64,000 nt of DNA from Limonium bicolor (taxonomy: Eukaryota > Streptophyta > Magnoliopsida > Caryophyllales > Plumbaginaceae): positions 42,600,171 through 42,664,170 of the forward strand of contig CM041776.1 in NCBI GenBank assembly GCA_023374045.1, in the 5' to 3' direction. Within the stretch, counting starts at the first letter, position 1, and the number at the start of each line of letters is the position of its first letter. This document shows positions 7,886 to 53,865 of this stretch, piece after piece. Below the pieces are notes generated by a model. The model ran no database searches. It saw nothing but the letters and a program-made list of their open reading frames with translations, and was not told the DNA's origin. The translations under genes and the position numbers were made by a program.

Positions 7886-7887
7886 AA

Positions 7888-22130: not shown

Positions 22131-22997
22131 CTCCTTACTTGAGAATAATGCTACTTCCCCTGTGACAGTGACAAGTGTGTCTCCATTCTTTTCCGTTGAT
22201 TGCTTGTTATTCTGCTTCTGTTCTCGTAATAGTTTCCTGCAATTCTTCTTCATGTGGCCTTCTAAGCCACACTGATAACAACTATAAGCGGCCTTTCTTC
22301 CATCTGTTGATTTACCTCTACTCTTGCTTCGGCCTCTCCATTTGCCTTGATTTCTTCCATGTGATCTCCCTCGGTGTTCAGTGACAAGAGCTTCTGTCTG
22401 CTCTGAACTTGTATCATTTCTCCTGGCCTCTTCATTGAACAAGGCTTCTTTTACCATTCCCATGGTAAGTGTACTATTAGGAGCTGAATTTCCAAGGGTG
22501 ATAACAAGTGTTTCCTGGCTGTCAGGGAGTGAACTAAGAAGTAGGAGAGCCTGCACTTCATCTCCAAGGTTGAATTCAACTGATGTTAATTGGTTTAACA
22601 AGCTTTGAAAATCACTGGCATGCTCGGCAACTGACTTCCCGCTCCGTAGCTTCAGATTTACTAATCGCCTCATTAGTAAAGCTTTGTTCCGAGCTGTCTT
22701 GGGCTGATACATATCCTTCAACTTCTTCCAGAGTGTATATGCATCAGTCTCCTCAGAAACATGATGGAAGACACTATGATCGATCCACTGACGGATTTGA
22801 CCGATCATTTTTCTATTCATTTTCTTCCATTCTTTTTCTTTAGCGGGCTCAGGATTCGTACCTTGAAGCTCAATTGGATTGTACAAATCTTTGCAACTAA
22901 GGAGATCTTCCATCCGAGGTCTCCAAAGTGTATAGTTTGTAGCGGTCAGTTTGAGCATAGCTCCATGGCTCCAAGATGATGAGTCTTCTACTGCCAT
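22080..22997 (-). CDS. gag: Copia Gag
   Basis: 305 codons with an intact frame. It has the Ty1/copia UBN2-type Gag (LTATNYTLWRPRMEDLL near the N-terminus, DAYTLWKKLKDMYQ, and LLSSLPDSQETLV). A basic RGRSHGRN-type linker follows, then a zinc knuckle CYQCGLEGHMKKNC (CX2CX4HX4C). It would assemble particles and bind element RNA. The start is the first ATG after a leader of about 540 bases from the primer site. The frame ends at 22080 just after the knuckle region, and protease reads in another frame. Confidence 0.9.
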   Translation of the reverse strand: MAVEDSSSWSHGAMLKLTATNYTLWRPRMEDLLSCKDLYNPIELQGTNPEPAKEKEWKKMNRKMIGQIRQWIDHSVFHHVSEETDAYTLWKKLKDMYQPKTARNKALLMRRLVNLKLRSGKSVAEHASDFQSLLNQLTSVEFNLGDEVQALLLLSSLPDSQETLVITLGNSAPNSTLTMGMVKEALFNEEARRNDTSSEQTEALVTEHRGRSHGRNQGKWRGRSKSRGKSTDGRKAAYSCYQCGLEGHMKKNCRKLLREQKQNNKQSTEKNGDTLVTVTGEVALFSSKEDVFIQQLKMLSGLLIL

Positions 22998-23535
22998 TCT
23001 GACTTGATTTATACTTATCGAATTTTAGGAGCAGAATTTGACAAAACGGAGTGCACCGTTGCGTCCGGAACGATCGAAAATGGTAGGATAGACCTTTTCT
23101 GGACCAAAAACGATGATATAGAAGGAAGTGACACGTGGCAAAATAAAGAATGCCTACTTGATGACGTGGCGTTATGTGGCGGCAGGGGTGCTGATGTGGT
23201 GCTGACGTGGATGCTGACTGGGATGATGACGTGGACTGCCACGTCACTATGGACCCGAAAAAACTACTAACGTGTCGCTGATGTGGCGATGACGTGGCGC
23301 TGACTGGGTTGTCTTCAGACTGGTTTTTTTTGTTTACTATTCATGTAGGTTTGACCTCAACTTTGACCGGCGATTTGAGGACCTTCCCGATGTCAAAAAA
23401 TTCTGGAAAAAATATTTCCGGAATCCTTGAAACGAGACCTTTCCAGTGCTGTGCCTAGAATTTGATTTGGAGACAAAAAAGTTTTTGGCTAAAATAAAAA
23501 TAATTCGAAAATAAATCTTCTGGACACCACCTCAA
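22998..23535 (-). promoter_or_regulatory. Copia leader with clustered TGACGTGG motifs
   Basis: Untranslated stretch between primer site and gag. From about 23129 to 23300 it has at least five ACGTGG/CCACGT cores, most as TGACGTGG, amid GCTGATGTGG repeats. ACGT cores with TGACG are classic bZIP binding sites. Whether they act here is not known. Confidence 0.55.
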
Positions 23536-23549: not shown

Positions 23550-24279
23550 TGTTGTATTTCTCACGAACACTTGATAATATTTAAGAGGAAACAACCTTCT
23601 ATTACTTTCAAGAATAGAATTACAAGAGTATAACCAACTCTTATACAAAAACCTCTTAAACTAACTCTCTCATGGAGCTACTAAACTCTACTGGTTTTTC
23701 TCTGTTTTATGTGTGTTTGAGAGCTCTTCCAATGCTCTTATTTATAGCAAAGGTTTGGCTCACAACATCCACCTAAGTCAATGAAGTTTGGTGAAAGATT
23801 GGTGAAGGTTTGGTGAAGGTTTGGTGAGGGTTTGGTAAGTGGTTCACCTACCATACAGCTGGAACCCCTTCAATTCTCCCCCTCCAGCTGCATCTGAATC
23901 GATTGTCATCAACAATCCATCCCAATTATGTCTCTGCATAACTGTAGCTTCTCTCGAGGAACCATCTTTGTTAACATGTCTGCAGGATTCTCATTCGTGT
24001 GGATCTTCGCTAGTCTCAATAGTTGTTTGTCCATCACTTCTCGTATCCAATGATAACGAGTGTCGATATGCTTTGTACGGGAATGATACATTGGGTTCTT
24101 GCTCAAATCTAGAGCACTCTGACTGTCACAATGTATCTTGTACTCTTTCTGTTTGATTTCTAATTCTTCTAGAAACCGTTTTTGCCATAACATTTCTTTA
24201 CCCGCTTCTGCTATTGCAATGTACTCAGCTTCTGTTGTGGATAATGCAACACACTTTTGTAATCTTGACTGCCATGACA
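23550..24279 (-). mobile_element. Copia LTR plus RNase H end (copy B)
   Basis: Near-identical to 12747-13476. The 323-bp LTR segment is 23550-23872, followed by the purine tract and RNase H coding. CATCG (24280-24284) and LINE sequence follow, as in copy A. Because a primer site and gag adjoin it on the left, this copy acts as the 5' LTR. Confidence 0.8.
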
Positions 24280-24289
24280 CATCGTGCAC
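23909..24289 (-). pseudogene. Copia RNase H, C-terminal part (copy B)
   Basis: Same open C-terminal RNase H segment as at 13103-13477, and again lacking the N-terminal catalytic aspartate. The extra codons upstream of VSWQ are LINE sequence across the CATCG junction. Confidence 0.85.
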
Positions 24290-24590
24290 TCATATCATCT
24301 ATGGAGATGAATGGGCTACGTTTGAAGAACGAAAAAACTGTTGCATAATGTATAAATCTATGTATAGAGAGAATCTCCTCTCACTATTTCAGGATCCTTA
24401 ATCAGAACATGTTGCAGGCTGCTACAAGCTGATGACTTCTTAAATTCGGATATGCCAGCAGGACCAGATGATACTGCAGTAACATACGAGCGATTATGAA
24501 CTATATACGCTGAAGCAGGCCTTCTCTGTTGCAAAAGGCGAGAGTGTCTTCTGAAGGAAAAGTGCTGTGATTTTTAGTCTTTCAGTTATA
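24280..24590 (+). pseudogene. LINE fragment 3 (right copy)
   Basis: Duplicate of 13477-13787 with only a few substitutions. This copy runs on into further sequence at 24591, so it is likely the original arrangement. Confidence 0.6.
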
Positions 24591-26672: not shown

Positions 26673-27104
26673 GATCCTAACTTTTTTATTTAGTGGTCAC
26701 TAGATCTTATCTATTAGATTGTTCTATAATCTAGACACATTGCTTCCTATGACTCATTGTATTTGAACCATGCATATATAGGAGTATATAGCTAAATCAG
26801 AATTGAGGCTATTGAAAAAGTTTACAACACAGTATTTTCATACTAAGAGTCAATTAATATAGGTTTTGGGAGTTTTCTTGTAGCAAAGCTATGTGCTTGT
26901 TGAATTAGAGTAAGAATTTTTTCAATTGTAAGTGTTCCCTCTTATATTCCGCATTTGGGATCAAATTAACAGTATCTGGTTAGTGTTATTTGAGTCTGGT
27001 GTTTCAACATCAACATTCTTTTGTACATGAGTGGTGATTAGAGATAATTGTGGGAAAATGAGGAGTTTCATTCTACTAAAATTAAGATTTTTGGTAACCA
27101 TAGA
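26673..27104. other. Unassigned
   Basis: AT-rich, with no gene or repeat recognised. The last bases (ATAGA) flank the Tat element. Confidence 0.3.
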
Positions 27105-27521
27105 TGGAGTAGAATTCGTGCTTGGGCAAAGGTTGCAAAGAGAATGCCCAATGGTGTATTGATTAAAGCCCGTCCAATTACATAGCTGATCACTCTATTT
27201 ATAGGCCCCCCTATAGAGTTAACCGTTTCTGTGGGCCTACACTACTCTAGAATATTCTCCAATATACAAGGTTTTCCTATAATTTACTCCTTTTGCCGAA
27301 CAGTCACTTCCAATCTACCGGAGAGGGCCTTGTTTCGCTTTGCTTCGGTGGTGGGGAAGACTATATGGCCTATCATTCTTCCGCAGTCTATCCAAAGAAT
27401 GGTTCTCTGGACGCAAGGGTCCAATCGTTGGGGTCGGTAGGAGACTCTTCTGTTGCCTCCGCAGGCGGCATGTATCCTTCGCTAGTCACTTGGTTACTAC
27501 GCGTGGTGGAACCCCACTTCA
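27105..27521 (-). repeat. 3' LTR of Tat element
   Basis: 417 bp, near-identical to 35427-35843. On the minus strand it starts TGAAGTGGGG directly after the purine tract GATCTTGTGGGACTGA (about 27522-27538). Confidence 0.92.
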
Positions 27522-28087
27522 TCAGTCCCACAAGATCTTTTCTTGTTCTGCAAGGAAAGATCTTCTTGTCGTTTCTTAAAAATTTTGGCGTTCTGCTCCA
27601 CTCCTCCTAGTCCCACAAGACCTCTTTTTTTTAAAAGAAAAGGAAAGAGGTCTTAGAATTGTTTCTTTTTGTTTGGATTTCCTTCCGTTGGAGATCTACC
27701 GGAGGCTCAGCAACGCGCCTTGCTTTAACTATCGCCTCCTCATCTTCTGAAGCTACTTTCCCTGACACACTTGCAGTAGTAGGCTATGATTACTTTCTGG
27801 TAGAGCGTGCCCAATTTCGCCTATTTAAGTCCATTTTCCCCCCTTCTTCTCTTCCCTCTGCTCTTTCAAACTTTCGAACTTCTCTGAGCTTTTGCGCATT
27901 TGTCCTCCATTTTCTTCCTTGCTCCCTGATCTCGATCTTTCGTTTTCTTGCTTATATAGTGGTCAGTTTTTCTCTCTCTCTTCTCTTTCCTGCTCCCCAA
28001 TTCCCTACTTTCCGTTCTTGCGTCTTCCCTCTTTCGTGCCTTTCCCTGTCTTTTGTTCGCCTGAATCTTCGGCTTTCTCTGCTCGTA
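27522..28087 (+). other. Upstream region of the antisense gene
   Basis: Between the LTR and the antisense gene's ATG. It is CT-rich from about 27830, with TATTTAAG at about 27820 as a possible TATA region. The open frame that begins at 27659 is more likely leader than protein. Confidence 0.45.
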
Positions 28088-31000
28088 ATGGATCTGTCAA
28101 ACCCAAGCTCTTCCACCCCGGCGCCGGCGGGATCGACACTTTTTGCTGACGGGGGAAATTGCGTTGTAGAAGATTCTGCCATTCCTTCCGAAGATATCGG
28201 CGGGGACTACCCTCGCCAGGGCACCGGCTCCAGTCTTTTCGTGAAAGACTTGAGGAAACTCATGAAAGGTGTGCAAGTCCCATTGGGGTCGAAGGTTCGC
28301 GTGCCAGAGCCGACGGCGCATCCCTTCAACTACTTCGGGGATGGTTTCGTTGTGTACCGGGAACACCTTCACCGTGGCTTGCGCTTCCCTCCGCACCCCT
28401 TCGTTCTTGGCTTTCTCTCGCGTCGGCGTTGCACTCTCGCCCATCTGAATCCCAATGCCCTAGGCTGTTTGCATGCCTTCCTCACCATCTGTGCGGAGAA
28501 CGACATTACCCCCGATGCGCGGGAATTTGTGAATTTTTTCACAACTAGGGTGAACACTACTACGGAGGAGGAGGACATATCCGTCCTGGCCGTGTCCGGA
28601 TATTCCTTTTTCAAGCGCGTGAGCCTGGAGAGCGGCTGGTCCTCCAACTAGTTCGTTTTTTATCCACCGAGGGGGACTTTTATCGGAGTCTCCCATATCG
28701 GAGACATAGCTAAGGGGCAGCTTGCCGCTCCGTTACCCTCTTCAGCCAATTCCTCTCTAACTGGAGACATACTCAAGAAGTTGAGCTCATCGGCGCTCCA
28801 TCCCATCACCTTCTTCCTTTCCGAAGAGAAGTGAACAAGACCCGGAGGAACATTGATCGTACGTATTTTTCCTGAGTGCCCCCTTTCTTTATTAGTTTTC
28901 GGATGTTTTCTTACTTCCTCTTTGGACCGCAGCTTTTGTTCAATCGGGCGGAAAATTCTCCCTCCGGTACAGCTGGGAGCTTGTCGATTACAGGGCTACC
29001 GAAGAGAAAAATGGAGCTCCTCCTGCTTCTTCTGATGGAAAAGTTCGAGTCCTTCCGGTAGCAAAACTACTGGTGCTAAGAGGAAAGCCCCCGAGGGGCC
29101 CAAGAAAGTCGATCAGTCTAAAATAAAATTAGTACGAAGGGAAAAGCATGTTACCGAAACTGGTTCCACCGGTCCCCTTGCTGTTGTCCCTTCGGAAACA
29201 GGTACTCCCATGTCCACTCCTGCCTGCAGTCCGGGTGGAGTTAAAAAAGATGTGGATTTAACTCTCATATCATCCCTCTTCCTGATCTGCATGGCTTTTT
29301 TTGCGTAGATGAAGCTTTAACTCAAAATATCGATTCCATTTTTTCCACTGGTATACCTTTCCACGGCCTTTTTTTTCCCTTTTCCGCTTTAACTTTGTAT
29401 TTGCTTGGTTACTTATGACTCTGCCTCTCGTAGCTGCTGCTCCTCCCTCCGGAGATCCTGAGCCTGAACGGGCGCGTCGACCCGTGCGCGGTGTCGTAAT
29501 AAAGGAAGGCGGCGCCCCGGAGGGAAAAATGGCTCTCGAAATTCCGTCTGGTAAAGGCAAAGGTATCGCTGAGGGTAGTGCGGAGGGAGGCTCTTCTTCG
29601 GAGTCGTCCGACGCTCCTTCCCAAGAGGCCCCTCAGTCCGGAGCCAGGAGCATGCATGCGGGCGACAGATCCTCCCCTCCACCGCGAGCTGATCCTTCGG
29701 TCCGCGGCCCTTCTTCAAAACCGGATTGGGGCTTTCACCGGGGAAACCCGATTCCTCGCATTCCATACGTCCGCGGTATGGGGTACAAGACCTTCTGGTC
29801 TACTGCTGCGGAGACAGCCAAAAATGACAATGGCATTTTTGCCCCTGCATCTCTTCCGACTCCCTTAAAACAAAAACTCTGGATTGGGGAGGGTAGCTCT
29901 GACGCCATCGTCCGCCACTCTCTTCCGAAGAGAGAGGCTTTTGACCGCCTCTAGAGTGCCTTAATTCAGGTTTGACTTCTTTATATACATTTATCTTATA
30001 TTACCTTTTGTTTTTTATTCTAATACTCTTGCCTTTTAGGCCATGGCGATGGCCCAATGTGTTGAGACCCAGTCTCAATACTCTTCCCAAGCCCTTCGCT
30101 CTTACGAGGCCCGTGCGGAGAAACATAAGAAAGCTGCCGATGAAGAGAAGGCCAAGGCTCAAGAAATCCTTACACGAGCGGAGGCTCAATTTGAGGCTGA
30201 AAAGGCCGCCCTCCGGGAGGAACTCCAAGAAGCTGCGTCCATCGACCGAGAGGACGCTATCAACAGATTGCAGGCTTTTTTTGACGATCAGAAGCGGGTG
30301 TTGGAAGAGGAAGCTGCAGACGTTCAGAAAGTTGCTGAAGAGATCCGGAGATCTACTGAGGATCTTCGGTCTTCCTTTGAATCAGAGTTAGAAAAAAGGA
30401 ACCAACTCTTGCAAGCTGAGGCCAAACAGAATGATCTCCAAGCCAGCCTTGAAACGGAGAGGGAAAAGCTTACGCAGGCAACTTTTCGAATTAAAGAGCT
30501 TGAGGAAGAGCTGGAAGCACAGAAGAAAAAGGCTTCCAAGTAATTCATACCACTGAAAGCTTCCATTTTTCCCTTTCTTTCATATTATTCTGCTAATCCT
30601 TTGTATTTTATGCAGAAAACCCAAGTCTTTCGTCGGAGACTGCCAGAAGTTCCGACTTTTGGCTTAAAAAGGTGTCTGGTCTTAAAGCTTCATTAATCAC
30701 TTCGGAGTCGGAGAGGGAACGATACCGGAGTCTTGCCTTATCCTTCGAGAGCCAGGTTGCGAAGTTAAAGGGGGTTCTCAAAGAGACGAAGTCGTAACTC
30801 CAAGCGAAGGATCGTACTGTTTCAGGTCTCAAAGAGACACTCTCTTCTCAGTGCCGTAAACTTGCCGGGGAGAGCCAACGAGTTGTATCCGAGTTCTTCT
30901 CCGAGAAGCAACAATCCGTGGACGAAGCCCTTTACGATAGCTTAGAGTTTGAAGCTCTTGCTCGTTCCACCGGATATCACGAAGAGCTGGCAAGGTTCTC

Positions 31001-35421: not shown

Positions 35422-35426
35422 TGAGA

Positions 35427-35843
35427 TGGAGTAGAATTCGTGCTTGGGCAAAGGTTGCAAAGAGAATGCCCAATGGTGGATTGATTAAAGCCCGTCCAAT
35501 TACATAGCTTATCACTCTATTTATAGGCCCCCTTAGAGTATAAACCGTTTCTGTGGGCCTACACTACTTTAGAATATTCTCCAATATACAAGGTTTTCCT
35601 ATAATTTACTCCTTTTGCCGAACAGTCACTTCCAATCTACCGGAGAGGGCCTTGTTTCGCTTTGCTTTGGTGGTGGGGAAGACTATATGGCCTATCATTC
35701 TTCCGCAGTCTATCCAAAGAATGGTTCTCTGGACGCAAGGGTCCGATCGTTGGGGTCGGTAGGAGACTCTTCTGTTGCCTCCGCAGGCGGCATGTATCCT
35801 TCGCTAGTCACTTGGTTACTACGCGTGGTGGAACCCCACTTCA
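35427..35843 (-). repeat. 5' LTR of Tat element
   Basis: 417 bp, paired with 27105-27521. The primer site lies immediately to its left. Confidence 0.92.
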
Positions 35844-38545: not shown

Positions 38546-41500
38546 TGAAATACCCCGTAATTAAAAACAGTGATTAATTAGGCTAATAAGTAATTTAGAG
38601 GCTTAATTAAGTATAAATAATCATAAGGGAACAAATCCCGAAGAAAACGGATCCTTAAAACGGATTAAAATCACTACCGAACCTTAAAGCGCGTTTTTCG
38701 AGGTAACCGGGAAAACGTGTCTTTAAGCGGGTCAAATAGACTCGTAATAATTTTTGGTCAACTAAATAATCATTAATGAATATTAGCGAAGCTTTAGAGC
38801 CAATAAAATCAATAAAACGAGAGATTAGTAAAAACTGTCAAAAACGGGAAGTTGTGGGGTAGAAATATAAATAACACAAACTTATGTGTCCAATAATGTA
38901 AAAAGAATTTTTGAAACCCTTGTGGGGCTGTGTGCTGTCCGATTTTACCACTCACACACACACACTCCACTCTCTTTTTACTCACAAAAGACAAACATAA
39001 TTAAAAACAATAAAGTAACCCCCACCCTCACTTTCTACTCTCTCTCCTCTATTCTACTCTCTCACTCACGTACCCATCTTCTTCCTCCTCTCTATTTTTC
39101 TCCTCCTCAACCGACACCAATGGAGAAATAAGAAAACACTCACAAACTCCATCTTCTTTCCTCTTGAAACTCCCTCAAACCTCTTCCAAAAATTATAAAA
39201 AGTATACCATTGGAATCCTCTCATCAAGAGCTACATTTCCATCTTTCCAAAATCCGAAAACCAACATTTTCGTTTTTATGTGAAATACCCCAAACTTAGA
39301 TATGGTGTTAAATGATAAACTAAGGTACAAGGAGGCTAAATAATGCCTTAGAAAACATTAAGAAACATTTCTAATCAAAGAAAATATAAGGAAACACCAA
39401 AAGAGCAGTTTTAACAAAACGTGCTCTAAGCTTGGAGAGACTTGGGAGAGTACCCAAATATTGTTCTAAGACCTTAGAATATCCTAATGGTCATTTTAAA
39501 TCAATTACCAAAGAAAACCAAGCTTGAAAACAAGTTAAAACACAAAATGTGCTTTAAGGAGTCTTAAAGCACGTTTTTGAAAAATTTGTGTTGTAAATGA
39601 GTTTTGAATGGCTAAATGTCCATCATTACTCTTTAATTAACATGTGTACTATATAGTATCACATTTGGAAGTCTATATCAATGGGAAATCAAAAATTTCA
39701 CAACAATGTGCCTTGTTTTGGTGAATAGTGAATTAATTAAGCTAGTTTATAACATAAGTCTATATAAGTGAGACATTTGGTCAACAAAGACTTAAGTACC
39801 CTCATTATTAAAAGGGGGCCGGTTTCTTAGGAGGTGAGTCACCACTTCATGAGTCATTAAGCAAATAAGAAAGCAAATGAGAGTTATAAAGTAAAATCAC
39901 TATCACCTTTTACATAAATATACACTTTATTAGTTCCTCTCCTCACTTCTTCATTCTCCTTTGTTTTCCCACGGTTTGAGCTGCTCTCTCCCTTCTCCAT
40001 TCACGTAAACTCAACCTCCATGAAAGCTCCATCCTTCCTTGGTCACATCTTACTCATTTTAGCTCCAAATCCAAAACAAATACATACTCTTCTTAGTTAG
40101 CTCAAGCTCCTTCTTTCTATCTTTTCAAAACTTCAAGAGCTTCATTTTGGTGCCAAGTCAAACCATTAGAGGAGGAAATTCAAGTTTGGAGACTCCATTG
40201 GCATCTCCATTCTCTTAAGGTAAAGAAAGTGTAAGAAAATCTAGGTTTCACCATTTTCTTCACATGTCCGAAAATATATACTCATGGAACTCCATGTTTA
40301 TGCCTTGTTCTAGCTTGTTTCTACTCTTCAAAGGAGAGAGGAGGTCCTTCTTGCTTCATATCCAAGTTTGTCTTGAGAAACCAAGGTAAACAATCACATT
40401 AATACCTTAAAGCATATTTTTAACCTAGGGTTTGTTCCTTAGGGTTAATGTGTTATCTAGTACTCATTGGAGTCATTGGATATTGGTTAGAACATTGGCA
40501 AGGAGATACACATTGGTGACCGAGATTGAACAAAGAAAAACCTAAGGAAGAAAGCTTTTTAAGCTTGTAAAAGAACAAGGTAAATTACTTACCTTAAGAT
40601 GTCTTGTTGTTTAAGGGAATGGGATTTAGTAGTATATGATGAGTTTAGTGTAGAGTTTATATTGGGAAGGTGTTATAAAACCTAGAAGAAACAATGACTA
40701 TACTTGTGAACTTTTGACTAAAGAGCAAATGAGAAGAAGAGATAGTTAAAACAATGTGGAAATGAATTACAAGAAGCATTTTATTTCAATGGGAGCCTTG
40801 TTGAGTGTATTCGCAGGTTGAAGGCAAATATATGTGGAAATTCAGTGGTTAAGATTATTGTCATTTAAGGGCCTAAGTGCCAAGCATTTTGAGTTTAAGC
40901 AATATATGATGATGTGGTGAAGTTTTAGTGTGTAAATTGTGTGTTAAGGTGTTGTGATGAGAATTTGTGGTATTGGTTGTTTGATGGAGAAAAACCATGT
41001 GTTAGGAGGTACTATATACTAGAGAACCCATGGCAAAATTTAAAGGAGAGCTTAAGTGTTTAAGATATTCTAAGGGAATTTAATGACTAAGGAAGTACTA
41101 GGATGTTCTATAGGTTGTCTTGATGAAAAAGGGTGAAGTTAAGGTGTTCTAATGACTTATAATGACTTAGGTATCACCATGGAGGATTTAGGAATCAAGA
41201 GAATGTATTTGAGTATTTAGGACTTAGGCAAATGTTGGTAAACAACTAGGAAGGAAATAATGTTGATGATGGAAGTTTAAGTTGTGAAGGAACATTAAGT
41301 AAATGCAGAAGAGAGTGGTTATAGTGGTGGTGAGGAAAACATTTGGCATAGTGGTTACATTAGGTATGAACCACCACCTAGAAACCTAGAGGAAAGCATT
41401 ACAAGTGTTAGCATAATTACAAGGGAAAATGTATAATGATTAAGGTGAAACTTGGTGAATGATTTAATGTGTTTGGAGGATGCTCTAAGGTGGGTTTAAG

Positions 41501-41583
41501 GTCTAAATGATGTTAGAACACATTGGATGGGAGGCTTGAGAAAGGTTTAGTGAAGATTTGGCAAAGTTTGGGCATTTTAGTGG

Positions 41584-41917
41584 CGTCCGACCCAGGGGTC
41601 CGACCCAAGTTTGGGTCGGACGGCCTCTGTTTAACGCCAGGGAAAGGTTCTGGAATGGTCCGACCCAGAGGTCTTGGGTCGGACATGGGTCGGACGGGTG
41701 ATTTTTAAAGGGCAAATAAGTTTCTGGAATGGTCCGACCCAGAAGGTTGGGTCGGACGTGGGTCGGACATGAGAGGTTTTAGAAGACGGAAAGTTTCTGG
41801 AATGGTCCGACCCAGTTGGTTGGGTCGGACATGGGTCGGACATGTAGGGTTTTCCAAACCCGAAAGTTACTGGAATGGTCCGACCCAGAGGGTGGGTCGG
41901 ACGGTGGGTCGGACGGC
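41584..41917 (+). repeat. Five-unit CCGACCC palindrome array, 5' LTR
   Basis: Five units at a period of about 73 bp, each GTCCGACCCAG, spacer, TGGGTCGGAC, then a second GGGTCGGAC, introduced by TTCTGGAATGG. Short open frames over it are artefacts of the repeat. Confidence 0.92.
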
Positions 41918-43002
41918 CCTTAACACTTAAAAAAAAAAAATTAAATTCTAAGAATGGTACTAGGTAATAAGGTATACCTTTGGTAGGGTGGTAATGATTG
42001 GGACACTAAGAACTTAAGGAACTAAGTTAAGTTAAGTGTAAGTTTTAATGTTTAAAGTTAAGATTGTAAGCTAAGTGGCAAAGACTTGAGAGGTTGTTAA
42101 ATGGGAATCTTTAGAGACTAAGTGAGTTAAGTAGGTGCAAATAACTAATGACCTAAAAATGAATGAATGTTTTAGGTTTGTGAATTGGGACCCCGAAGAA
42201 GGTTAAACAAACAACGATCGACGGTGAACGGTACAATCCTTCTTGTGACCTGCTTGCTAACGAGGTGTCCCTCGGCTTGTGTGCTATCTGTTTAATTGCT
42301 ATGACTAAAACAAGATAAAGCATGCAACCGGTTATATTTATTCTCGTTGTGTTTGTGTTATCTTTACACTAACCCACGAGACTTGAGATTGTTACTAACC
42401 AAGTTTAGTACTTACTGAGTTAAGAATAAGAGTTAAGTTTGATGGTTGTTGGTTAATGCCCGTTAAGGCTTAGCTAGCACATGGTGTTTAAGATGTCTAC
42501 TAACTGGAACTTGAGTGAGGAAACCCGGGACCGATCTCCGGTCATGCATGCTAAGGAAAAAGGGGGACGGTATCTGAATCAGATCCGCCCTCCGCTTAAG
42601 GACTTGTCTTCGGACTTGTAGCCTAGGGCCGGTTGCCGGCTCAGCTACGCTGGACTCCCGTCCAGAGTAGGTGGCATTAAGATGGTGCGGTGGGATCACC
42701 TAAATCCCAGGTTCGAATTAAGCTACAACCAATCCCTTCCAGGAAAGGTTTGTATACTGAGATTAAGATTAAGATTAAGGTAAGGTAAGGAAATGAGATT
42801 AAGGAAATGAGGACTAAGGAGGGGGTTACTAACCCACTTGATAAGGGAACGCTTGAGTCGTTCATTGTTTGTGAACTATATATGTTCATCTGTGGTTATT
42901 GTTATTGCACTTCATATTATGCTTGTGTATGTAATCAATTTCCATGCTATCGACAATTAGTCGTCGTAGCCCCGTTAGCTTGGGGGCCATGAGAGGGTGT
43001 AC

Positions 43003-43049
43003 CAGCATTCGTGCTGACCCCCTCGGGGGCTATTTTTACACTTGCAGGT
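43003..43049 (+). promoter_or_regulatory. LTR hairpin pair and CAG/GTAAG splice-donor-like site
   Basis: CAGC-ATTCGT-GCTG, then CCCCCTCGGGGG, a T run, and CAG/GTAAG with GT at 43048-43049. The site matches a strong plant 5' splice site. An acceptor-like TTGTTCAG ends at 43607, just before the gag ATG, so a leader intron is possible. Confidence 0.5.
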
Positions 43050-43383
43050 AAGACCCATGAGGACGCACTACGAGAGTAGGAGCGGTTAGACTTAGGGTGG
43101 GATTTATTTTGAGTTCGGGTTGCGCCTGTGCACCCGACTGTTTATATTAAACTGATGTAAGTTTGGGATTATGTTTAAGATACTTGTACTCGGTTGGTTG
43201 TGGTATGGATGTGATGTTTTGAGTTGGATAAGTATTTTGGTTAAGTATTGTAAATGTTAAAGCCGGTATATTCTAACGATCAGACCGTGGCAAGGTCCAG
43301 GTGTTATTATCTCCGCTGCGACGTATTCGTTAAGTGTTCAGTTTGATAACCACGATTGGCTTTGGATGGGGTGTTACAAAAAG

Positions 43384-43395
43384 TGGTATCAGAGC
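43384..43395 (+). other. Primer binding site (tRNA-iMet)
   Basis: TGGTATCAGAGC, five bases after the 5' LTR. Confidence 0.95.
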
Positions 43396-43607
43396 GTAGT
43401 TACGCTCTGATCAAGAAATACCGGACATGAGTAACCACCGAGTTAGGATATAAGTTAAGGAATAAGTGTGGGTTAAGGGTGTGAGAAGTTAGAGTGAGTA
43501 GAGTCAGATGACCACTAATAAGTGTGGATCGTCTTTATCGTCTACGGACGTTATAAATTCTAACCAAACAGTGGTGAATACGAATCTAATGAGTTATGCT
43601 TGTTCAG

Positions 43608-45000
43608 ATGGCAGGACGCCTAGGGAGGCCGAGGTCGCGGCCGGGGTGAGGATACTTCAGGAATACCTGGAGGGCAGACGATCGCAGAGATCGTAGCTGC
43701 CGCTTTAGGGCACATGGGCTACCAGCCTGGTGTGGGTGCACCACCTCCACCGCCACAACCTAGGGAACCAAACTGGGTGAAGAGTCTAGCAGATCTTCGA
43801 CCCGCGCATTTTAAGGGGGAGACCGATCCCGCCAAGCTTGAGGCGTACATCTCCGAGCTGGAGACCGCCTTCGAGACCCTTGATGTCCCTGTTGGGATCA
43901 AGGTGCGCTTAGCTGCTTTCTATCTGAAGGGGGCGGCAGGCGATTGGTGGAAGCTGGTGAGGGCCGAGCATGTGGCCAATCCAGAGTTCGGCTGGGAGCA
44001 GTACACCGCCTTGCTACGAGCAAAGTACTACCCCGCCCATGTCCAGACGAAGAAGCGCTTGCAGTTGGATGCGCTTAAGCAGACGGACAAGATGACAGTG
44101 GACGAGTATTACTCAGAGTTCACTGCCTTGCTCCGTCTTCTGCCAGGTCTAGGGTATTCTGACCAGATCTTGGTGGACCGCTTCTATGGCGGGCTTAGCC
44201 ATCGACTCCGCTACGGCATGGGGCCGACGAGTTACACTACCTTGCAGGTAATAAGAATGATTGAGATTTGAGTAAGTGATGAATAAGATTTAGATTATGA
44301 GAAATAAGTGACTAATACTATGGAAAAGCAGGAGTGCTATCATGCCGCTGCTAAGGTTGAGATTACCGTCCAGCTGAGGGACGAGGAGAATGCAAAGAGG
44401 AAGAGTGCTGGTAAGAGCTCAGAAAGTCAGGGCAAGGAGGGTACAAGAAACAAAAGTACCAGCCTCAGGCCCAGAAAAATCAGAACCCAAAGGGGAGGAG
44501 GAAAAGGAGAAGGCTTCGGAAGAGCCATTGAAGCTGACATATGCTATTGCAGCTACACCCTGCGCTCTAAGGCGCCAAAGGGTAAGGAAATTGATATTGA
44601 ATGAGTTAAGAAATAAATTAGTAACCGTTTGAGATATGAGAATTGACAATATCATCAGGATCTGAGACTGAGAAGGGAGCCGGTGGTGGCTACCAGCGAC
44701 GCTTCATCTGTAGATGGTGTCACAAGGACCACCCCGGGCTCGACTGTAAGGGGAATAAGGTGGAGTGCAACTTTTGTGGAGTCTACGGGCATCGAGCATA
44801 TGAGTGTTACCGGAACCCTGCTAGCAGAGCCTATAGGCCCGATACCAGGGGCAAGGGCAAGACCGATCAGGGAGCTGGATCTGACGGTCAGAGGAAGGTG
44901 CAGCAGCCGGCGGACAAGAACCCACGGGTGACCCAGAAGACGGGGCCCACTTTACACATGGTGGACCGGGACGATGAGCCTGAGCCCTCATCGAGGCCAG
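43608..45000 (+). CDS. gag: Tekay-like Gag, three exons
   Basis: Start proposed at ATG 43608 (MAGR, then an RG-rich stretch after a one-base shift near 43622). Exon 1 runs to 44247 and carries the capsid domain: WVKSLADLRPAHFKGETDP, AAFYLKGAAGDWWKL, YYPAHVQTKKRLQLDALKQ and DEYYSEF. Exon 2 is 44332-44581, mostly basic and low complexity. Exon 3 is 44659-45000 and has two zinc-knuckle-like motifs, CRWCHKDHPGLDC and CNFCGVYGHRAYEC. The last exon ends in phase 1 at CCAG/GTACC, which can join either downstream exon. Splicing is inferred from frame. Confidence 0.8.
44248..44331 (+). other. Gag intron 1, 84 bp
   Basis: CAG/GTAATA donor and AAAAGCAG/GAG acceptor. Removing it joins exon 1 to exon 2 in phase 0 and removes an in-frame TGA at 44269-44271. 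Confidence 0.75.
44582..44658 (+). other. Gag intron 2, 77 bp
   Basis: AAAGG/GTAAGG donor and TATCATCAG/GATC acceptor. Removal joins the exons in phase 1 and restores the frame leading to the zinc knuckles. The unspliced frame hits a stop within the interval. Confidence 0.75.
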
Positions 45001-45133
45001 GTACCACTATAACCATTTAGTAATAAAAACTACCTGCTTACCGCATTATCATGCATGTTTGGTGAATAAATGAGTTAAGTAAGAATAAGATGAGATTAGA
45101 ACTTAAGTAAGATATAACCTACTACCACTTTAG

Positions 45134-45870
45134 GAGATTCAACATTGCTACCCAATACCATCTACACTAACCCGGAGCACACCGACATCGAAACCATAGA
45201 CTTTCCAACCGAACAATGTCAGGTTATCCGCCCAGGTATGATTTTATTAAGGGGATACCTGACACCCGAAGCACAAATAGCCATCATCAGGAGATGCAAT
45301 CAACTAGGAATGGGACCGGGAGGTTTTTACACACCGGAGTACCCAGGGGGAGCAAGGATGAAATTAAAGATGATGAGCTTGGGCAAGGATTGGAATCCGT
45401 ATGCCAAGAATTACCAAACCATGAGGGAGCAAGATGGAGTCTCACCACCGGGAATACCCGAAGAGTTCCATCCAGTTATTACACAAGTCGTGGAAATCGC
45501 TCAGCAGTTGGAGGCTGAACCGATTCCAGACATCCAAGCAGACATTTGCATTGTAAACTTCTACGAGAAGGACGGGAAACTGGGACTACACCAGGATAAG
45601 GACGAGACAACGAAGTCTCTCGAAAGAGGGATACCTGTAGTGTCTTGGTCCATTGGAGATGATGCGGAGTTTTTATACGGCGAGCAGAAGCGTGCGGACC
45701 GTGCAGATAAGATAGTACTTAAGTCAGGTGATGTATTAATTTTGGGAGGAGAATCAAGGATGTTATACCATGGGATTAAGAGAATCAAGCTGAATACAGC
45801 ACCATCAGCAGTAGTCAATGCGACCCATATGAGACCAGGAAGATTAAACCTAACCTTTAGACAATATTAG
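45134..45870 (+). CDS. AlkB-like Fe(II)/2-oxoglutarate dioxygenase exon
   Basis: An open frame of about 245 codons ending TAG at 45868-45870. No ATG lies at the start; the first in-frame ATG is 45238. Numbering from 45145, it has VIRPGMILLRGYLTPEAQ, MSLGKDWNP, ADICIVNFY and the Fe(II) ligands H149-Q-D151 in LGLHQDKDE. The distal H209 is in RMLYHG, and R233/R239 in GRLNLTFRQY bind 2-oxoglutarate. This set defines the AlkB family, which removes methyl groups from N-methylated bases, and it looks most like plant ALKBH1-type proteins. The preceding acceptor joins in frame to gag. A host-gene capture is inferred. Confidence 0.9.
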
Positions 45871-45942
45871 CCATGTAATGTTAGAATGAGATGAGAAATG
45901 AGATGTAAGATTGAAGCACATGTTGTAAACAGGATGGTCATG

Positions 45943-45948
45943 AATAAA
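45943..45948 (+). terminator. Candidate poly(A) signal after the AlkB exon
   Basis: AATAAA about 73 bases after the AlkB stop, with TGTAA motifs upstream. It could end a Gag-AlkB transcript inside the interval. The sequence is AT-rich, so chance is possible. Confidence 0.35.
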
Positions 45949-46068
45949 ATAACAGTGTTGTTCATATAAATTGATTACGACTCTTGTTATACCATCAATA
46001 CTCATGGAGCTTGTGAACACAATTAGGTTATGGACTCGGTACGGAAGGTGCACTAAGCATACTTACAG

Positions 46069-49000
46069 AGGCACAGGCCGACGCCAGCGGTACTATCCTC
46101 ACCGGCACCTTTCCGATCAATGGGATTGAGGCATCAGTTCTCTTCGACTCAGGGGCCTCGCATACCTTTGTCTCTGCATCATTTGCGAGCAGGTTGGGGC
46201 TAGACGCTGATGAGCTACCCGACTTCACGGTTACGCTCCCGTCTAAGGAGAAGGTTCGTTGCACTCGTTACTACCGAGGAGCCATTATCAGAATTAAGGG
46301 AGAAGACTTTCCAGTCAGTTTCATTGAGTTCAGTAAGCTAGGATTTGATGTTATCTTCGGGATGAACTGGTTGGAGCGGCACAAGGGACGTATCCTCTGC
46401 GCCGAGCATAGATTGCTGCTCAGGAGTCCGTCTGGGGTAACATATCATACCGCCAGAGGCCCAGAGAGCCTTCGACTAAGATCATCACCGCCATGGCAAT
46501 GCATAGAGAATTAAGGAGAAAGGAAGAAGTATACCTCTGCTATGTACAGGACATAGAGAGAGACCCTGAGTTCGACCCCGACTTACCGGTAGTGTCGGAG
46601 TTCCCCGACTTATTTCCACGGGAACTGCCCGGCATGCCACCCACTCGGGAGGTAGAGTTCACCATTGAGCTGCTACCTGGTACCGGACCGATAGCCAAAG
46701 CACCATACCGTATGGCTCCGGCAGAAATGACTGAGTTAAAAGAACAATTGAAAGATTTGTTGGATAAGGGATTCATTAGACCAAGTGTGTCACCATGGGG
46801 AGCGCCAGTCCTCTTCGTGAAGAAGAAGGATGGTAGTCTCCGCCTCTGCATCGACTACAGAGAGCTGAATGCAGTGATGAAGAATAAGTACCCACTACCC
46901 CGCATTGACGATCTGTTCGATCAGTTGAAGGGAGCATCTGTGTTTTCCAAGATTGATCTCAGATCGGGGTATCATCAGATAGCCATTAAGGAGGGAGACA
47001 TTGAGAAGACGGCATTCCGGACACGATACGGCCACTATGAGTTTACAGTGATGCCGTTCGGTTTGTCGAACGCACCGGCGAAGTTTATGGATCTGATGAA
47101 CCGCTTGTTCCGGGAGCAGCTGGACAAGTCGGTTGTGGTTTTTATTGATGACATTCTGATATATTCAAAGTCTAAAGTTGAACATGAGGAACATCTGAGG
47201 AGGGTATTGGAAATACTGAGGGAGAACCAGCTATATGCTAAGTTCTCCAAGTGTGAGTTTTGGCTTGACCAGGTTTCCTTCCTAGGTCATGTCATCTCAG
47301 ATGCTGGGATCGCAGTGGATCCAGCAAAGATTGATGCCGTACGTACTGGCCAAGGCCGAAGACTGTTACCGACATCCGGAGCTTTCTCGGTCTGGCAGGT
47401 TACTACAGGAGGTTTGTTAGAGATTTCAGCAAGGTCGCGAAACCGATGACAGTCTGATAAGAAGGACGCACCATTCTTGTGGACATTGACTGTGAGAGAT
47501 CATTTCAATTTCGCTTGAAGGACTCACTACCACTGCACCGGTTCTGACCATTCCAGACGGTACAGAGGGCTTTGAGGTTTATTGTGATGCATCCGGCAGG
47601 GGCTGGGTTGCGTGCTCATGCAACATGCAAGGTGTTGCATATGCCTCACGCCAGTTGAAGAAACATGAGGAGAACTACCCCACACATGATTTAGAGCTGG
47701 GAGCTGTAGTCTTCGCTTTGAAGATATGGCGCCACTACTTATATGGGGTTAGTGTCACGATCTACACCGATCACAAGAGTTTGAAATACATATTCACTCA
47801 GAAGGAGTTAAATCTTCGACATAGAAGATGGTTAGAGTTTCTGAAAGACTATGACATTGACCTCCAATACAAAGAAGGGAAGGCCAATGTTAGCATGCCC
47901 TGAGCCGTCGAGCACACTCACTCCATTCGCTAGTTTTTCTTTCTCCAGCTTGGTTGATGAAGTGCGAGAGGCTCAGAGGACAGATGAGTACATGAGAGAG
48001 GTCAGACAGAAGCTGACAGATGGTACCTTTGAGAGTCAGAAATACGACTTCAGACTTCATGATGATGATCTGATCAGACTTAAGGGCCGATTATGCTACC
48101 ACGGGGCAACACGATCTGAAAGACCGTATACTTAGAGAATCACACTGTTCTTCAGTTTCCATCCATCCGGGAGCCTCTAAAATGTATAAAGACATGAAGA
48201 GATACTTCTGGTGGTCGGGGATGAAGACAGATGTTACCGAGTTCGTCTTGAGGTGTCTCACATGCCAGAAGGTGAAGTTTGAGCACCGACGACCGGGCGG
48301 AATGGTACAGTCATGCCAGTTCCAGTTCCGGAGTGGAAGTTCCATGATATCTCCATGGACTTCGTAGTTGGGCTTCCACCTGCTAGGGGAGGTCTCAACA
48401 TGATATGGGTGGTGGTGGATCGCCTTACCAAAGTAGCCCGATTCATACCGATGAAGGATACTTGGAAGGTGACCAAATTAGCTGAGTTATTTGAGAAAGA
48501 AATCATGAGACACCACGGTATACCAAAGACCATAGTGTCAGATAGAGATACCAGATTCCTTTCGAGGTACTGGAGAGCTACCAGAGAAGCGTTGGGTACA
48601 AAACTCAAGCTGAGTACCGCGTTTCATCCTCAGACAGATGGTCAACTGAGCGTACTATTCAGACACGAGGACATGCTGAGAGCATGTGCCTTAGACTTCC
48701 AGGGCAGTTGGATCGACAGATTGCATCTGATCGAGTTTTCATACAACAACAGCTATCACGCTTCGATCAAGATGGCACCTTTTCAAGCGTTGTATGGTAG
48801 ACCATGTCGTACACCGCTCTGCTGGGATGAGTCGAGTGAGACGGTCATTATAGGACCAGAGTACTTAGAACAAGTTAAGGCTGAAGTTCAGCAAATCAGG
48901 GAGAACATGAAAGCTGCTCAAGATAGGCAGAAGTCGTATGCTGATGTTCGACGACGGACCTGGAGTTCGCAGTGGGCGACCAGGTATTTCTGCGAGTTTC

Positions 49001-49393
49001 ACCGATGAAGGTGTATTCAGGTTTGGGCAGAAGGGCAAATTAAGCCCGAAATTTGTTGGTCCATATGAGATTACGGAGTGGGTGGGCCCGGTTTCTTACA
49101 GGTTGAATTTACCTGCTGAGCTGGGTAAAGTGCATGATGTTTTTCATGTTTCACAGCTAAAGAAATACATGCACCACCCCTCCCATGTGTTAGAACCTGA
49201 GAGGTTGACTTTAGAACCAAATATGAGATCCGTGGAGACTCCTCAGAGAATCTTGGACAGCAAGACTAGGGACACTCGCCACAAGTCAGTGCGACTGGTG
49301 AAGGTTCTCTGGTCTAACCAGGATGTCGAAGAGGCCACGTGGGAATTAGAGGATAAGATGAGGGCGAAGTACCCTTCTTTATTTACTGACTAG
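46069..49393 (+). pseudogene. pol: Tekay-like Pol: protease, RT, RNase H, integrase, chromodomain
   Basis: Begins at the predicted acceptor. Protease LFDSGASHTF lies near 46140 and GFDVIFGMNWL near 46345. The reverse transcriptase has LCIDYRELN near 46845 and [10 protein letters not shown] near 47140. RNase H YCDASG is near 47580. The integrase zinc region (HPGASKMYKDMKR and CLTCQKVK) lies near 48165-48275. The core has SMDFVVGLP, VSDRDTRF and the glutamate before DMLRA. A chromodomain ([17 protein letters not shown]) precedes the stop at 49393. Frameshifts near 46480, 47345, 47450-47620, 47890, 48130, 48310, 48640 and 48980 make it non-functional as written. Confidence 0.93.
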
Positions 49394-49702
49394 ATCGTCT
49401 GTATAGGGTACGGGGCGTACCCCTTTTTAAGGGGGTAGAGCTTCCTCGCTTTTGAGTTAGGAAACGATCATGTTTGTCGTTTGTTTGGTTGTTTAAGATG
49501 TGAATTTGTGTAAGTTGCTACACTTCGGTGTAAGTTTGAGTTATGTATAATACTTATGTATTGTATTTGAGATTGACCTTTGAGTCTTGAGATGTATGAA
49601 TGTGAATATAAGATGTGGTATTAAGATTAAGAGAACTGTGTACCGTGAATGGTTAAGCACATGTGTGAACCTTAGGACAAAGTTCTTTTGAGGGGGGTAG
49701 AT
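49394..49702 (+). other. 3' untranslated region and polypurine tract
   Basis: No coding sequence. Ends in AGGACAAAGTTCTTTTGAGG plus a G tract and TAGAT, the plus-strand primer just before the 3' LTR. Confidence 0.75.
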
Positions 49703-52700
49703 TGAAATACCCCAAACTTAGATATGGTGTTTAAATGATAAACTAAGATATAAGGAGGCTAAATAATGCCTTATAAACATTAAGAAACATTTCTAATCAA
49801 AGAAAATATAAGGAAACACCAAAAGAGCAGTTTTAACAAAAACGTGCTCTAAGCTTGGAGAGACTTGGGAGAGTACCCAAATATTGTTCTAAGACCTTAG
49901 TAATATCCTAATGGTCATTTTAAATCAATTACCAAAGAAAACCAAGCTTGAAAACAAGTTAAAACACAAAATGTGCTTTAAGGAGTCTTAAAGCACGTTT
50001 TTGAAAAATTGTCTTGTAAATGAGTTTTGAATGGCTAAATGTCCATCATTACTCTTTAATTAACATGTGTACTATATAGTATCACATTTGGAAGTCTATA
50101 TCAATGGGAAATCAAAATTTCACAACAATGTGCCTTGTTTTGGTGAATAGTGAATTAATTAAGCTAGTTTATAACATAAGTCTATATAAGTGAGACATTT
50201 GGTCAACAAAGACTTAAGTACCCTCATTATTAAAAGGGGGCCGGTTTCTTAGGAGGTGAGTCACCACCTTCATGAGTCATTAAGCAAATAAGAAAGCAAA
50301 TGAGAGTTATAAAGTAAAATCACTATTCACCTTTTACATAAATATCACACTTTATTAGTTCTCTCTCCTCACTTCTTCATTCTCCTTTGTTTTCCCACGG
50401 TTTGAGCTGCTCTCTCCCTTCTCCATTCACGTAGAACTCAACCTCCATGAAAGCTCCATCCTTCCTTGGTCACATCTTACTCATTTTAGCTCCAAATCCA
50501 AAACAAAATACATACTCTTCTTAGTTAGCTCAAGCTCCTTCTTTCTATCTTTTCAAAACTTCAAGAGCTTCATTTTGGTGCCAAGTCAAACCGCCATTAG
50601 AGGAGGAAATTCAAGTTTGGAGACTCCATTGGCATCTCCATTCTCTTAAGGTAAAGAAAGTGTAAGAAAATCTAGGTTTCTACCATTTTCTTCACATGTC
50701 CGAAAATATATACTCATGGAACTCCATGTTTATGCCTTGTTCTAGCTTGTTTCTACTCTTCAAAGGAGAGAGGAGGTCCTTCTTGCTTCATATCCAAGTT
50801 TGTCTTGAGAAACCAAGGTAAAGCAATCACATTAATACCTTAAAGCATATTTTTAACCTAGGGTTTGTTCCTTAGGGTTAATATGTTATCTAGTACTCAT
50901 TGGAGTCATTGGATATTGGTTAGAACATTGGCAAGGAGATACACATTGGTGAACGAGATTGAACAAAGAAAAACCTAAGGAAGAAAGCTTTTTAAGCTTG
51001 TAAAAGAACAAGGTAAATTACTTACCTTAAGATGTCTTGTTGTTTAAGGGAATGGGAGTTAGGTATATGATGAGTTTAGTGTAGAGTTTATATTGGGAAG
51101 GTGTTATAAAACCTAGAAGAAACAATGACAATACTTGTGAACTTTTGACTAAAGAGCAAATGAGAAGAAGAGATAGTTAAAACAATGTGGAAATGAATTA
51201 CAAGAAGCATTTTATTTCAATGGGAGCCTTGTTGAGTGTATTCGCAGGTTGAAGGCAAATATATGTGGAAATTCAGTGGTTAAGATTATTGTCATTTAAG
51301 GGCCTAAGTGCCAAGCATTTTGAGTTTAAGCAATATATGATGATGTGGTGAAGTTTTAGTGTAAATTGTGTGTTAAGGTGTTGTGATGAGAATTTGTGTG
51401 GTATTGGTTGTTTGATGGAGAAAAACCATGTGTTAGGAGGTACTATATACTAGAGAACCCATGGCAAAATTTAAAAGAGAGCTTAAGTGTTTAAGATATT
51501 CTAAGGGAATTTAATGACTAAGGAAGTACCAGGATGTTCTATAGGTTGTCTTGATGAAAAAGGGTGAAGTTAAGGTGTTCTAATGACTTATAACGACTTA
51601 GGTATCACCATGGTGGATTTAGGAATCAAGAGAATGTATTTGAGTATTTAGGACTTAGGCAAATGTTGGTAAACAACTAGGAAGGAAATAATGTGTTGAT
51701 GGATGGAAGTTTAAGTTGTGAAGGAACATTAAGTAAATGCATAAGAGAGTTCTAGATAGTGAAAGATGCTTGGGAGATGATGTTATAGTGGTGAGGAAAA
51801 CATTTGGCATAGTGGTTACATTAGGTATGAACCACCACCTAGAAACCTAGAGGAAAGCATTACAAGTGTTAGCATAATTACAAGGGAAAATGTATAATGA
51901 TTAAGGTGAAACTTGGTGAATGATTTAATGTGTTTGGAGGATGCTCTAAGGTGGGTTTAAGGGTCTAAATGATGTTAGAACACATTGGATGGCTTGAGGA
52001 AAGGTTTAGTGAAGATTTGGTAAAGTTTGGGCATGATTTAGTGGCGTCCGACCCAGGGGTCCGACCCAAGTTTGGGTCGGACGGCCTCTGTTTAACGCCA
52101 GGGAAAGGTTCTGGAATGGTCCGACCCAGAGGTCTTGGGTTACATGGGTCGGACGGGTGATTTTTAAAGGGCAATAAGTTTCTGGAATCGTCCGACCCAA
52201 AAGGTTGGGTCGGATGTGGTCGTCCGACCCAAAGGTTGGGTCGGATGTGGGTCGGACATGAGAGTTTTTGAAGACGGAAAGTTTCTGGAATGGTCCAACC
52301 CAGTTGGTTGGGTCGGACATGGGTCGACATGTAGGGTTTTCCAAACCCAAAGTTACTGGAATGGTCCGACCCAGAGGGTGGGTCGGACGGTGGGTCGGAC
52401 GGCCCTTAACACTTAAAAAAAAAAAATTTTAAATTCTAAGAATGGTACTAGGTAAGTATACCTTTGGTAGGGTGGTAATGATTGGGACACTAAGAACTTA
52501 AGGAACTAAGTTAAGTTAAGTGTAAGTTTTAATGTTTAAAGTTAAGATTGTAAGCTAAGTGGCAAAGACTTGAGAGGTTGTTAAATGGGAATCTTTAGAG
52601 ACTAAGTGAGTTAAGTAGGTGCAAATAACTAATGACCTAAAAATGAATGAATGTTTTAGGTTTGTGAATTGGGACCCCGAAGAAGGTTAAACAAACAACG

Positions 52701-53860
52701 ATCGACGGTGAACGGTATAATCCTTCTTGTGACCTGCTTGCTAACGAGGTGTCCCTCGGCTTGTGTGCTATTTGTTTAATTGCTATGACTAAAACAAGAT
52801 AAGCATGCAACCGGTTATTTATTCTCGTTGTGTTTGTGTTATCTTTACACTAACCCACGAGACTTGAGATTGTTACTAACCAAGTTTAGTACTTACTGAG
52901 TTAAGAATAAGAGTTAAGTTTGATGGTTGTTGGTTAATGCCCGATAAGGCTTAGCTAGCACATGGTGTTTAAGATGTCTACTAATGGAACTTGAGTGAGG
53001 AAACCCGGGACCGATCTCCGGTCATGCATGCTAAGGAAAAAGGGGGACGGTATCTGAATCAGATCCGCCATCCGCTTAAGGACTTGTCTTCGGACTTGTA
53101 GCCTAGGGCCGGTTGCCGGCTCAGCTACGCTGGACTCCCGTCCAGAGTAGGTGGCATTAAGATGGTGCGGTGGGATCACCTAAATCCCAGGTTCGAATTA
53201 AGCTACAACCAATCCCTTCCAGGAAAGGTTTTATACTGAGATTAAGATTAAGATTAAGGTAAGGTAGGAAATGAGATTAAGGAAATGAGGACTAAGGAGG
53301 GGGTTACTAACCCACTTGATAAGGGAACGCTTGAGTCGTTCATTGTTTGTGAACTATATATGTTCATCTGTGGTTATTGTTATTGCACTTCATATTATGC
53401 TTGTGTATGTAATCAATTTCCATGCTATCGACAATTAGTCGTCGTAGCCCCGTTAGCTTGGGGGCCATGAGAGGGTGTACCAGCATTCGTGCTGACCCCC
53501 TTGGGGGCTATTTTTACACTTGCAGGTAGAGGCCCATGAGGACGCACTCTAGATAGTAGCGGTAGACTTAGGTGGGACATTTATTTGAGTTCAGGTTGCG
53601 CCTGTGCACCCGACTGTTTTATTAAACTGATGTAAGTTTGGGATTATGTTTAAGTACTTGTACTCGGTTGGTTGTGGCATTATGGATGGTGATGTTTTGA
53701 GTTGGATAAGTATTTGGTTAAGTATTGTAAATGTTAAAGCCAGTATATTCTAACGATCAGACCGTGGCAAGGTCCAGATGCTTATTATCTCCGCTGCGAC
53801 ATATTCGTTTAAGTGTTCAGTTTTATGATAACCACGATTGGCTTTGGATGGGGTGTTACA
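49703..53860 (+). repeat. 3' LTR of the AlkB-carrying element
   Basis: 4,158 bp, paired with 39281-43378. It has the same array, AAGGTAA triplet (near 50648, 50816 and 51010) and hairpin block (53480-53526). Confidence 0.93.
52044..52405 (+). repeat. Six-unit CCGACCC palindrome array, 3' LTR
   Basis: Same family as 41584-41917 but with an extra partial unit near 52190-52255, showing unit gain or loss since insertion. Confidence 0.88.
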
Positions 53861-53865
53861 TTATG

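Follow-up and report, generated by a model that had tools for sequence, protein, structure and literature searches.

A chromovirus-like Ty3 retrotransposon family of Limonium bicolor with introns in gag and a predicted ALKBH1-type AlkB exon between gag and pol

Structure and classification of the element

One complete LTR retrotransposon, Ty3 chromovirus-like in its organisation, occupies positions 39281–53860 of the window, i.e. of the whole 64,000-nt stretch of Limonium bicolor contig CM041776.1 that was analysed. Its LTRs are about 4.1 kb long, have TG..CA ends and are flanked on both sides by TTATG. The following features were assigned (window coordinates):

39276–39280, unstranded: target-site duplication TTATG, left copy
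39281–43378, plus strand: 5' LTR, 4098 nt, starts TGAAATACCC, ends GGGTGTTACA
43384–43395, plus strand: primer-binding site TGGTATCAGAGC, a motif which we take to be of the tRNA-Met type
43624–44247, plus strand: gag exon A (capsid; Retrotrans_gag, E 5.4e-18; relative P0122 71% identical)
44248–44331, plus strand: intron i, 84 nt, phase 0 (low-GC island, splice scores, exact loss in copies)
44332–44581, plus strand: gag exon B (open frame; phase fits exon A in 9 of the 11 copies that allow the comparison)
44582–44658, plus strand: intron ii, 77 nt, phase 1 (low-GC island, splice scores, exact loss in copies)
44659–45000, plus strand: gag exon C, containing the CCHC zinc knuckles (E 0.0034 for zf-CCHC_3, a weak match under the Pfam cut-off)
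45001–45133, plus strand: predicted intron iii (Gag to AlkB), phase 1 (GT and AG in 60 of 60 copies)
45134–45870, plus strand: predicted AlkB exon with its own stop at 45868–45870 and codons from 45136 (Pfam, PDB, AlphaFold, copies)
45001–46026, plus strand: predicted alternative intron skipping AlkB (Gag to Pol), 1026 nt, phase 1 (AG 46026 in 60 of 60 copies)
46027–49393, plus strand: pol with protease, RT, RNase H, integrase, SH3 and chromodomain (about 49241–49369)
49690–49697, plus strand: polypurine tract GAGGGGGG
49703–53860, plus strand: 3' LTR
53861–53865, unstranded: target-site duplication TTATG, right copy

The order of domains found with Pfam is gag, zinc knuckle, AlkB, protease, RT, RNase H, integrase, SH3 and chromodomain, where the matches of the zinc knuckle, the integrase core and the chromodomain are below the curated cut-offs. 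The chromodomain (PF00385, E 2.4e-5, 24.6 bits compared to a cut-off of 25.1) directly follows SH3_Tf2-1 (E 4.5e-22). In the window copy, pol is broken by several frameshifts.

LTRs, target-site duplication, primer site and the order PR-RT-RH-INT place the element in Ty3/gypsy, and the chromodomain at the integrase end, with its match just under the Pfam cut-off, is the character of a chromovirus. The long LTRs and the tRNA-Met-type site are only consistent with the Tekay clade, and the element is not filed as Tekay here. It shares LTRs of several kb, a 5-bp duplication and a chromodomain with the Bongo elements of beet, which are Tekay-clade chromoviruses (PMC3605345). The same source describes one continuous gag-pol frame for beet chromoviruses, whereas in the Limonium element introns i and ii split gag and AlkB separates gag from pol; a continuous frame may, however, not be what defines the Tekay clade.

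The two LTRs differ at 35 positions (blastn), with a K2P distance of 0.015 (MAFFT). Since this difference is small, the insertion is young; at a substitution rate of 1.3e-8, its age is roughly 0.3–0.6 million years. Both LTRs hold four units (41629–41911 and 52090–52397), which in the left LTR (TTCTGGAATGGTCCGACCCAG...) are spaced by about 73 nt; they resemble a stretch at 19694–20067.

Other elements were observed in the window. Positions 2001–12633 hold a Ty3 element that has a chromodomain and 286-nt LTRs of 98% identity and that served as the control for intron islands. Sequence with direct repeats (6256–7886 and 10097–11730), perhaps a nested element, interrupts it. Direct repeats at 12747–13785 and 23550–24588 (98.9%) enclose a minus-strand gag of the copia type (22086–23024), and repeats at 27102–27521 and 35424–35843 (97.6%) enclose a frame with Transposase_28 (27635–28645), a domain reported from Retand elements (PMC11963269). 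Rfam yielded nothing at gathering scores.

The AlkB domain

The AlkB frame extends from stop to stop over 45118–45870 (250 aa) and matches PF13532 over the full profile (E 1.7e-45). An open AlkB frame between the Gag zinc knuckles and the protease, inside TTATG-flanked LTRs, had been proposed from the sequence alone and was found as described. The best PDB match by sequence is 5xeg, rice OsALKBH1 (E 1.9e-74, 52% identity), followed by E. coli AlkB (4e-24) and ALKBH1 entries (from 5e-12), values far beyond chance. The proposal that a Ty3 element, here one with a chromodomain, carries an ALKBH1-like gene is supported. An AlphaFold model computed with 33 bacterial relatives as input reached a pLDDT of 90.5 and a pTM of 0.88; the single sequence alone gave a pLDDT of 38.7. 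The best fold match of the model is again OsALKBH1 (E 2e-29, TM 0.84).

The iron ligands H152, D154 and H212 and the 2-oxoglutarate ligands R236 and R242 are kept (counted from codon 45136). The original prediction had recognised the HxD...H and RX5R residues, but its numbering was three too low. Its bounds of 45134–45870 agree with the predicted exon, but not its reading frame: translation from 45134 runs into stops, because the predicted 3' splice site interrupts a codon and 45134 is the first base downstream of it.

Given the HxD...H and RX5R ligands, the jelly-roll fold and the closest similarity to ALKBH1 and bacterial AlkB, the domain is, judged by sequence and modelled fold, of the ALKBH1/bacterial-AlkB type with an intact active site and a predicted demethylase. 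It resembles OsALKBH1 (5xeg, 5xoi) in fold, sequence and active site, but the rice protein is encoded by a cellular gene, whereas the AlkB of the element is placed in a separate clade. In plant RNA viruses, too, a parasite bears an AlkB fold; however, the viral fold matches show identities of 10–23% among the 50 rows listed and are not the closest relatives.

Relatives and origin of the AlkB

In a tree with 32 of 80 bacterial loci, one IMG/VR locus and E. coli AlkB, the AlkB of the element pairs with that of rice (100/98), and both join two Acidobacteria (100/99). The latter are the MAGs L001 and L002, whose AlkBs join the plant ALKBH1 type. A viral or bacterial origin was rejected on the basis of this tree and of the matches listed in the fold search and the protein search. 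IMG/VR yielded no relatives when searched with the AlkB and RT proteins, and one distant locus when searched with the profile.

The closest proteins among the best 120 of 667 matches are P0002 (74%), P0003 (65%), P0004 (69%) and P0005 (63%). After these, identity drops to at most 56% among the matches listed, those with names being plant AlkB or of ALKBH1C/D type. The element and P0002–P0005 form one group on a long branch, supported with 100% in two trees of 49 and 41 hand-chosen rows without an outgroup root. A faster evolution of the element AlkB, hinted at by branch lengths, was unsupported in a relative-rate count (11 versus 9). The predicted protein P0124 of Artemisia annua, whose AlkB domain is partly repeated in tandem, ranked high in the profile search because of this repetition, but does not join the clade of the element in the tree.

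The gag search gave two matches only, the better one being P0122 (71%). The contigs of P0122 and P0002 are both 26,621 bases long. The two proteins therefore seem to lie on one contig, and a second element carrying a related gag (71%) and AlkB (74%) is probable. An FDIC motif in the N-terminal part of P0003 is also present in P0006 and P0087; hence, the group may include cellular genes.

Copies in the host genome and selection on AlkB

A search of the 2.92-Gb host genome scored 150 candidates, all of which match AlkB with 93–100% identity, the window's own copy included; 137 of them are without an internal stop (counted from the table). As there were 52,185 first-look candidates, 150 is a lower bound. 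The element is thus a family and not a single copy, an outcome that would have refuted the original prediction.

Sixty other copies (L090–L149) were fetched, ranked by AlkB protein similarity; all copies were found through AlkB. They span window positions 43600 to at least 46683, except for L130, which has nothing before 44496. The order gag-AlkB-pol was retrieved in 59 of the 60, again with the exception of L130. No gap of 25 bases or more was found in 52 copies; apart from intron losses, such gaps occur in L092, L109, L126 (which lost part of the protease), L130 and L139. Identity to the window ranges from 0.957 to 0.996 (median 0.980), and pairwise identity over 45001–46500 from 0.939 to 1.000. 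Many small indels were seen among the copies, coding exons included, which may be assembly error or decay.

Over the window and the 60 copies, AlkB yielded a dN/dS of 0.184 (95% 0.103–0.292), not near 1 and close to the values for two gag exons (0.206 and 0.092) and the protease (0.204). The wrong-frame controls on the same DNA gave 1.14 and 1.93. Sampling by AlkB similarity lowers dN and favours open frames in AlkB, with no direct effect on gag or protease. D154, H212, R236 and R242 are present in 60 of 60 copies and H152 in 59. Purifying selection appears to keep AlkB intact in the sampled copies.

Introns in gag

Three low-GC islands, found without reference to reading frames, interrupt gag (44249–44327, 44583–44655 and 45008–45146), an addition to what the original prediction had observed. 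There are none inside pol, and in the control chromovirus (2001–12633) neither the gag nor the pol frame has any, apart from a 34-nt AT-rich end. With splice scores based on plant splice-site preferences, the top-scoring donors and acceptors at a distance of up to 15 or 20 nt from the ends of the islands form the pairs 44248/44331, 44582/44658 and 45001/45133, with a joint p for the fit of 0.0006 (15 nt) and 0.0022 (20 nt). At 8 nt, donors alone gave a p of 0.0002 and one acceptor was out of range; acceptors alone gave 0.058 at 15 nt, 0.11 at 20 nt and 1.0 at 8 nt (one outside). All three predicted pairs are phase-compatible in the window copy.

Individual copies lack these introns exactly. 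The 84 nt of intron i are missing in L143 and L145 of the 60 copies and in L156, one of ten shorter stretches, of which two reach this intron. The 77 nt of intron ii are missing in L104 of the 60 and in L157 of the ten. In total, 5 of 70 copies are without intron i or ii at boundaries predicted beforehand from composition, and the gap placements were checked and are equivalent to these boundaries. Such losses are the trace expected of spliced RNA after reverse transcription; the DNA copies thus show, if indirectly, that introns i and ii are removed. On this indirect evidence, the element is an intron-bearing LTR retrotransposon. Intron iii was lost in none of the 70 copies.

Whenever one of the 60 copies retains a splice site, its GT or AG is intact, and the AG of the AlkB acceptor (45133) and AG 46026 before the protease occur in all 60. 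Open exons agree in phase in 9 of 11 cases for A-B, 16 of 20 for B-C, 18 of 26 for C-AlkB and 17 of 19 for C-Pol, compared to an expected one third. The frame of P0122 ends with TTLQVLS, where exon A of the window meets its GT. In a homology test, 44332 ranked first of 50 AG-preceded starts, but fourth of all 372. Among the ten shorter stretches, L150 and L152 align poorly upstream of about 44499.

The stretches flanking AlkB (45001–45133 and 45871–46026) vary less among the 60 copies (0.029 and 0.020) than introns i and ii (0.039 and 0.089). The idea that the four AT-rich gaps are copies of one another was not convincing (best pair p 0.003, ten pairs tested).

Proposed expression of AlkB

The first in-frame ATG of AlkB in the window copy is codon 45238, which lies inside the conserved domain start. 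With no earlier in-frame ATG, a start joined from upstream would be needed for the whole domain in this copy. Two acceptors match donor 45001 in phase: 45133 (Gag-AlkB) and 46026 (Gag-Pol). Because there is no ATG before the domain start and the phases fit, we take AlkB to be an alternative exon fused to Gag.

The unspliced transcript would serve as the genome, and the AlkB coding sequence would be an exon between gag and pol, within what is otherwise an intron. After removal of introns i and ii, exon C would be joined to AlkB, giving a Gag-AlkB fusion that ends at the AlkB stop; alternatively, it would be joined past AlkB to the protease, giving Gag-Pol. Through its fusion to Gag, the demethylase would reach the packaged RNA and its cDNA, on either of which a Gag-borne AlkB could act, and AlkB may strip methyl groups (m6A, m1A or DNA 6mA) that the host or damage has put there. 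The use of the AlkB and pol acceptors in splicing, the packaging, the substrate and the benefit are what we infer here. The pol acceptor 46026 scores weakly (rank 159 of 578), and the chain A-B-C-AlkB is open in only 4 of 60 copies, the chain A-B-C-protease in 3 of 60. The strongest donor-like site of the inner part of the element is 45236, inside AlkB; by position it has phase 1, so that a cassette exon 45134–45235 between gag and pol is conceivable.

Taken together, the reading which we moderately favour is that of a recently active, amplified chromovirus family with a selected ALKBH1-type AlkB exon between gag and pol that is fused to Gag by splicing and demethylates packaged RNA or cDNA. 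We give about even chances to the wider claim that AlkB is an alternative terminal exon, that one splice switch both sets the Gag:Pol ratio and loads the demethylase, and that Ty3 elements captured AlkB at least twice, from different subfamilies.

Regarding the substrate, a main activity on DNA (6mA or alkylated cDNA), i.e. a role in repair rather than in the removal of RNA marks, is a tentative possibility that we rate somewhat below the balance. OsALKBH1, the closest solved relative, points in this direction, as the rice enzyme reportedly demethylates 6mA when the DNA is single-stranded (PMC10469495), but family membership does not fix the substrate and an orchid enzyme of another subfamily has m6A RNA activity in vitro (PMC9289625).

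It is rather unlikely that AlkB is made as a separate protein from an internal start or a subgenomic RNA. The orchid AlkB does have its own ORF (PMC9289625) and the relative P0002 is predicted to start at an internal ATG in the same place; however, a start at 45238 would remove the beginning of the conserved domain in the window copy, and an acceptor and compatible frame precede this ATG in most testable copies (18 of 26).

Plant elements capture gene pieces and the copy sample is biased to intact AlkB, but the dN/dS of 0.18 compared to 1.1–1.9 in the wrong-frame controls, the catalytic residues kept among copies and the separate clade of AlkB relatives make it very improbable that AlkB is passive cargo. 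Least probable of all is that the gag interruptions, although purine-rich and with weak pyrimidine tracts, are AT-rich insertions instead of introns, in view of five exact losses at predicted GT..AG ends, conserved splice sites and phases, and the control chromovirus of the same window without such islands inside its gag and pol frames.

Comparison with known systems

A Ty3 element with an AlkB has been described before, in Phalaenopsis (PMC9289625), and the present family is a second, structurally different case. The original prediction knew of no Tekay family with this cargo; none was found among the papers listed, but AlkB in another Ty3 lineage was published in 2022 (PMC9289625). The orchid element, Gypsy_Pa_2799, likewise belongs to an amplified Ty3 family and encodes an AlkB-fold 2OG-Fe(II) oxygenase with conserved ligands. 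It is, however, of the Tat/Ogre lineage, 25 kb long and with a tRNA-Arg primer, and its ALKBH5/9/10-like AlkB is located in a separate 565-aa ORF2 and active on m6A in vitro (PMC9289625). The Limonium element, in contrast, features a chromodomain, a tRNA-Met-type primer site and an ALKBH1-type predicted enzyme, encoded by a putative exon between gag and pol. These characters set it apart from Gypsy_Pa_2799.

In a screen of 121 plant genome assemblies, the AlkB domain was reported from two Phalaenopsis species only (PMC9289625). AlkB in a chromovirus, or capture of an ALKBH1-type gene, was not found among the open-licence PMC papers listed. The accessible part of PMC11963269 contains no AlkB, and a term search of the available text of PMC7264820 found none of Tekay, chromovirus or oxygenase. 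The tobacco m6A demethylase of PMC12736721 has no bearing on the element.

Splicing that sets the protein output from one RNA would be shared with Ogre and EVADE (PMC12786077, PMC6317226). These belong to other lineages and have their introns in other places, and the accessible parts of both sources mention no AlkB exon. The 2025 review PMC12786077 names the orchid AlkB case, with Ogre and EVADE as the intron-bearing exceptions, and the Ogre intron is also described in PMC6317226. Precedents in plant elements are hence available for the enzyme activity (PMC9289625) and for splicing control (PMC12786077).

A second AlkB capture, from another subfamily and in a differently built Ty3 element, would, if true, make chance a poor explanation, and would make it possible to test whether plants hold transposons in check through the methylation of nucleic acids. 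The predicted splice layout would offer a concrete route for the enzyme to the packaged RNA, and possibly a new way for a chromovirus to control its output of Gag and Pol.
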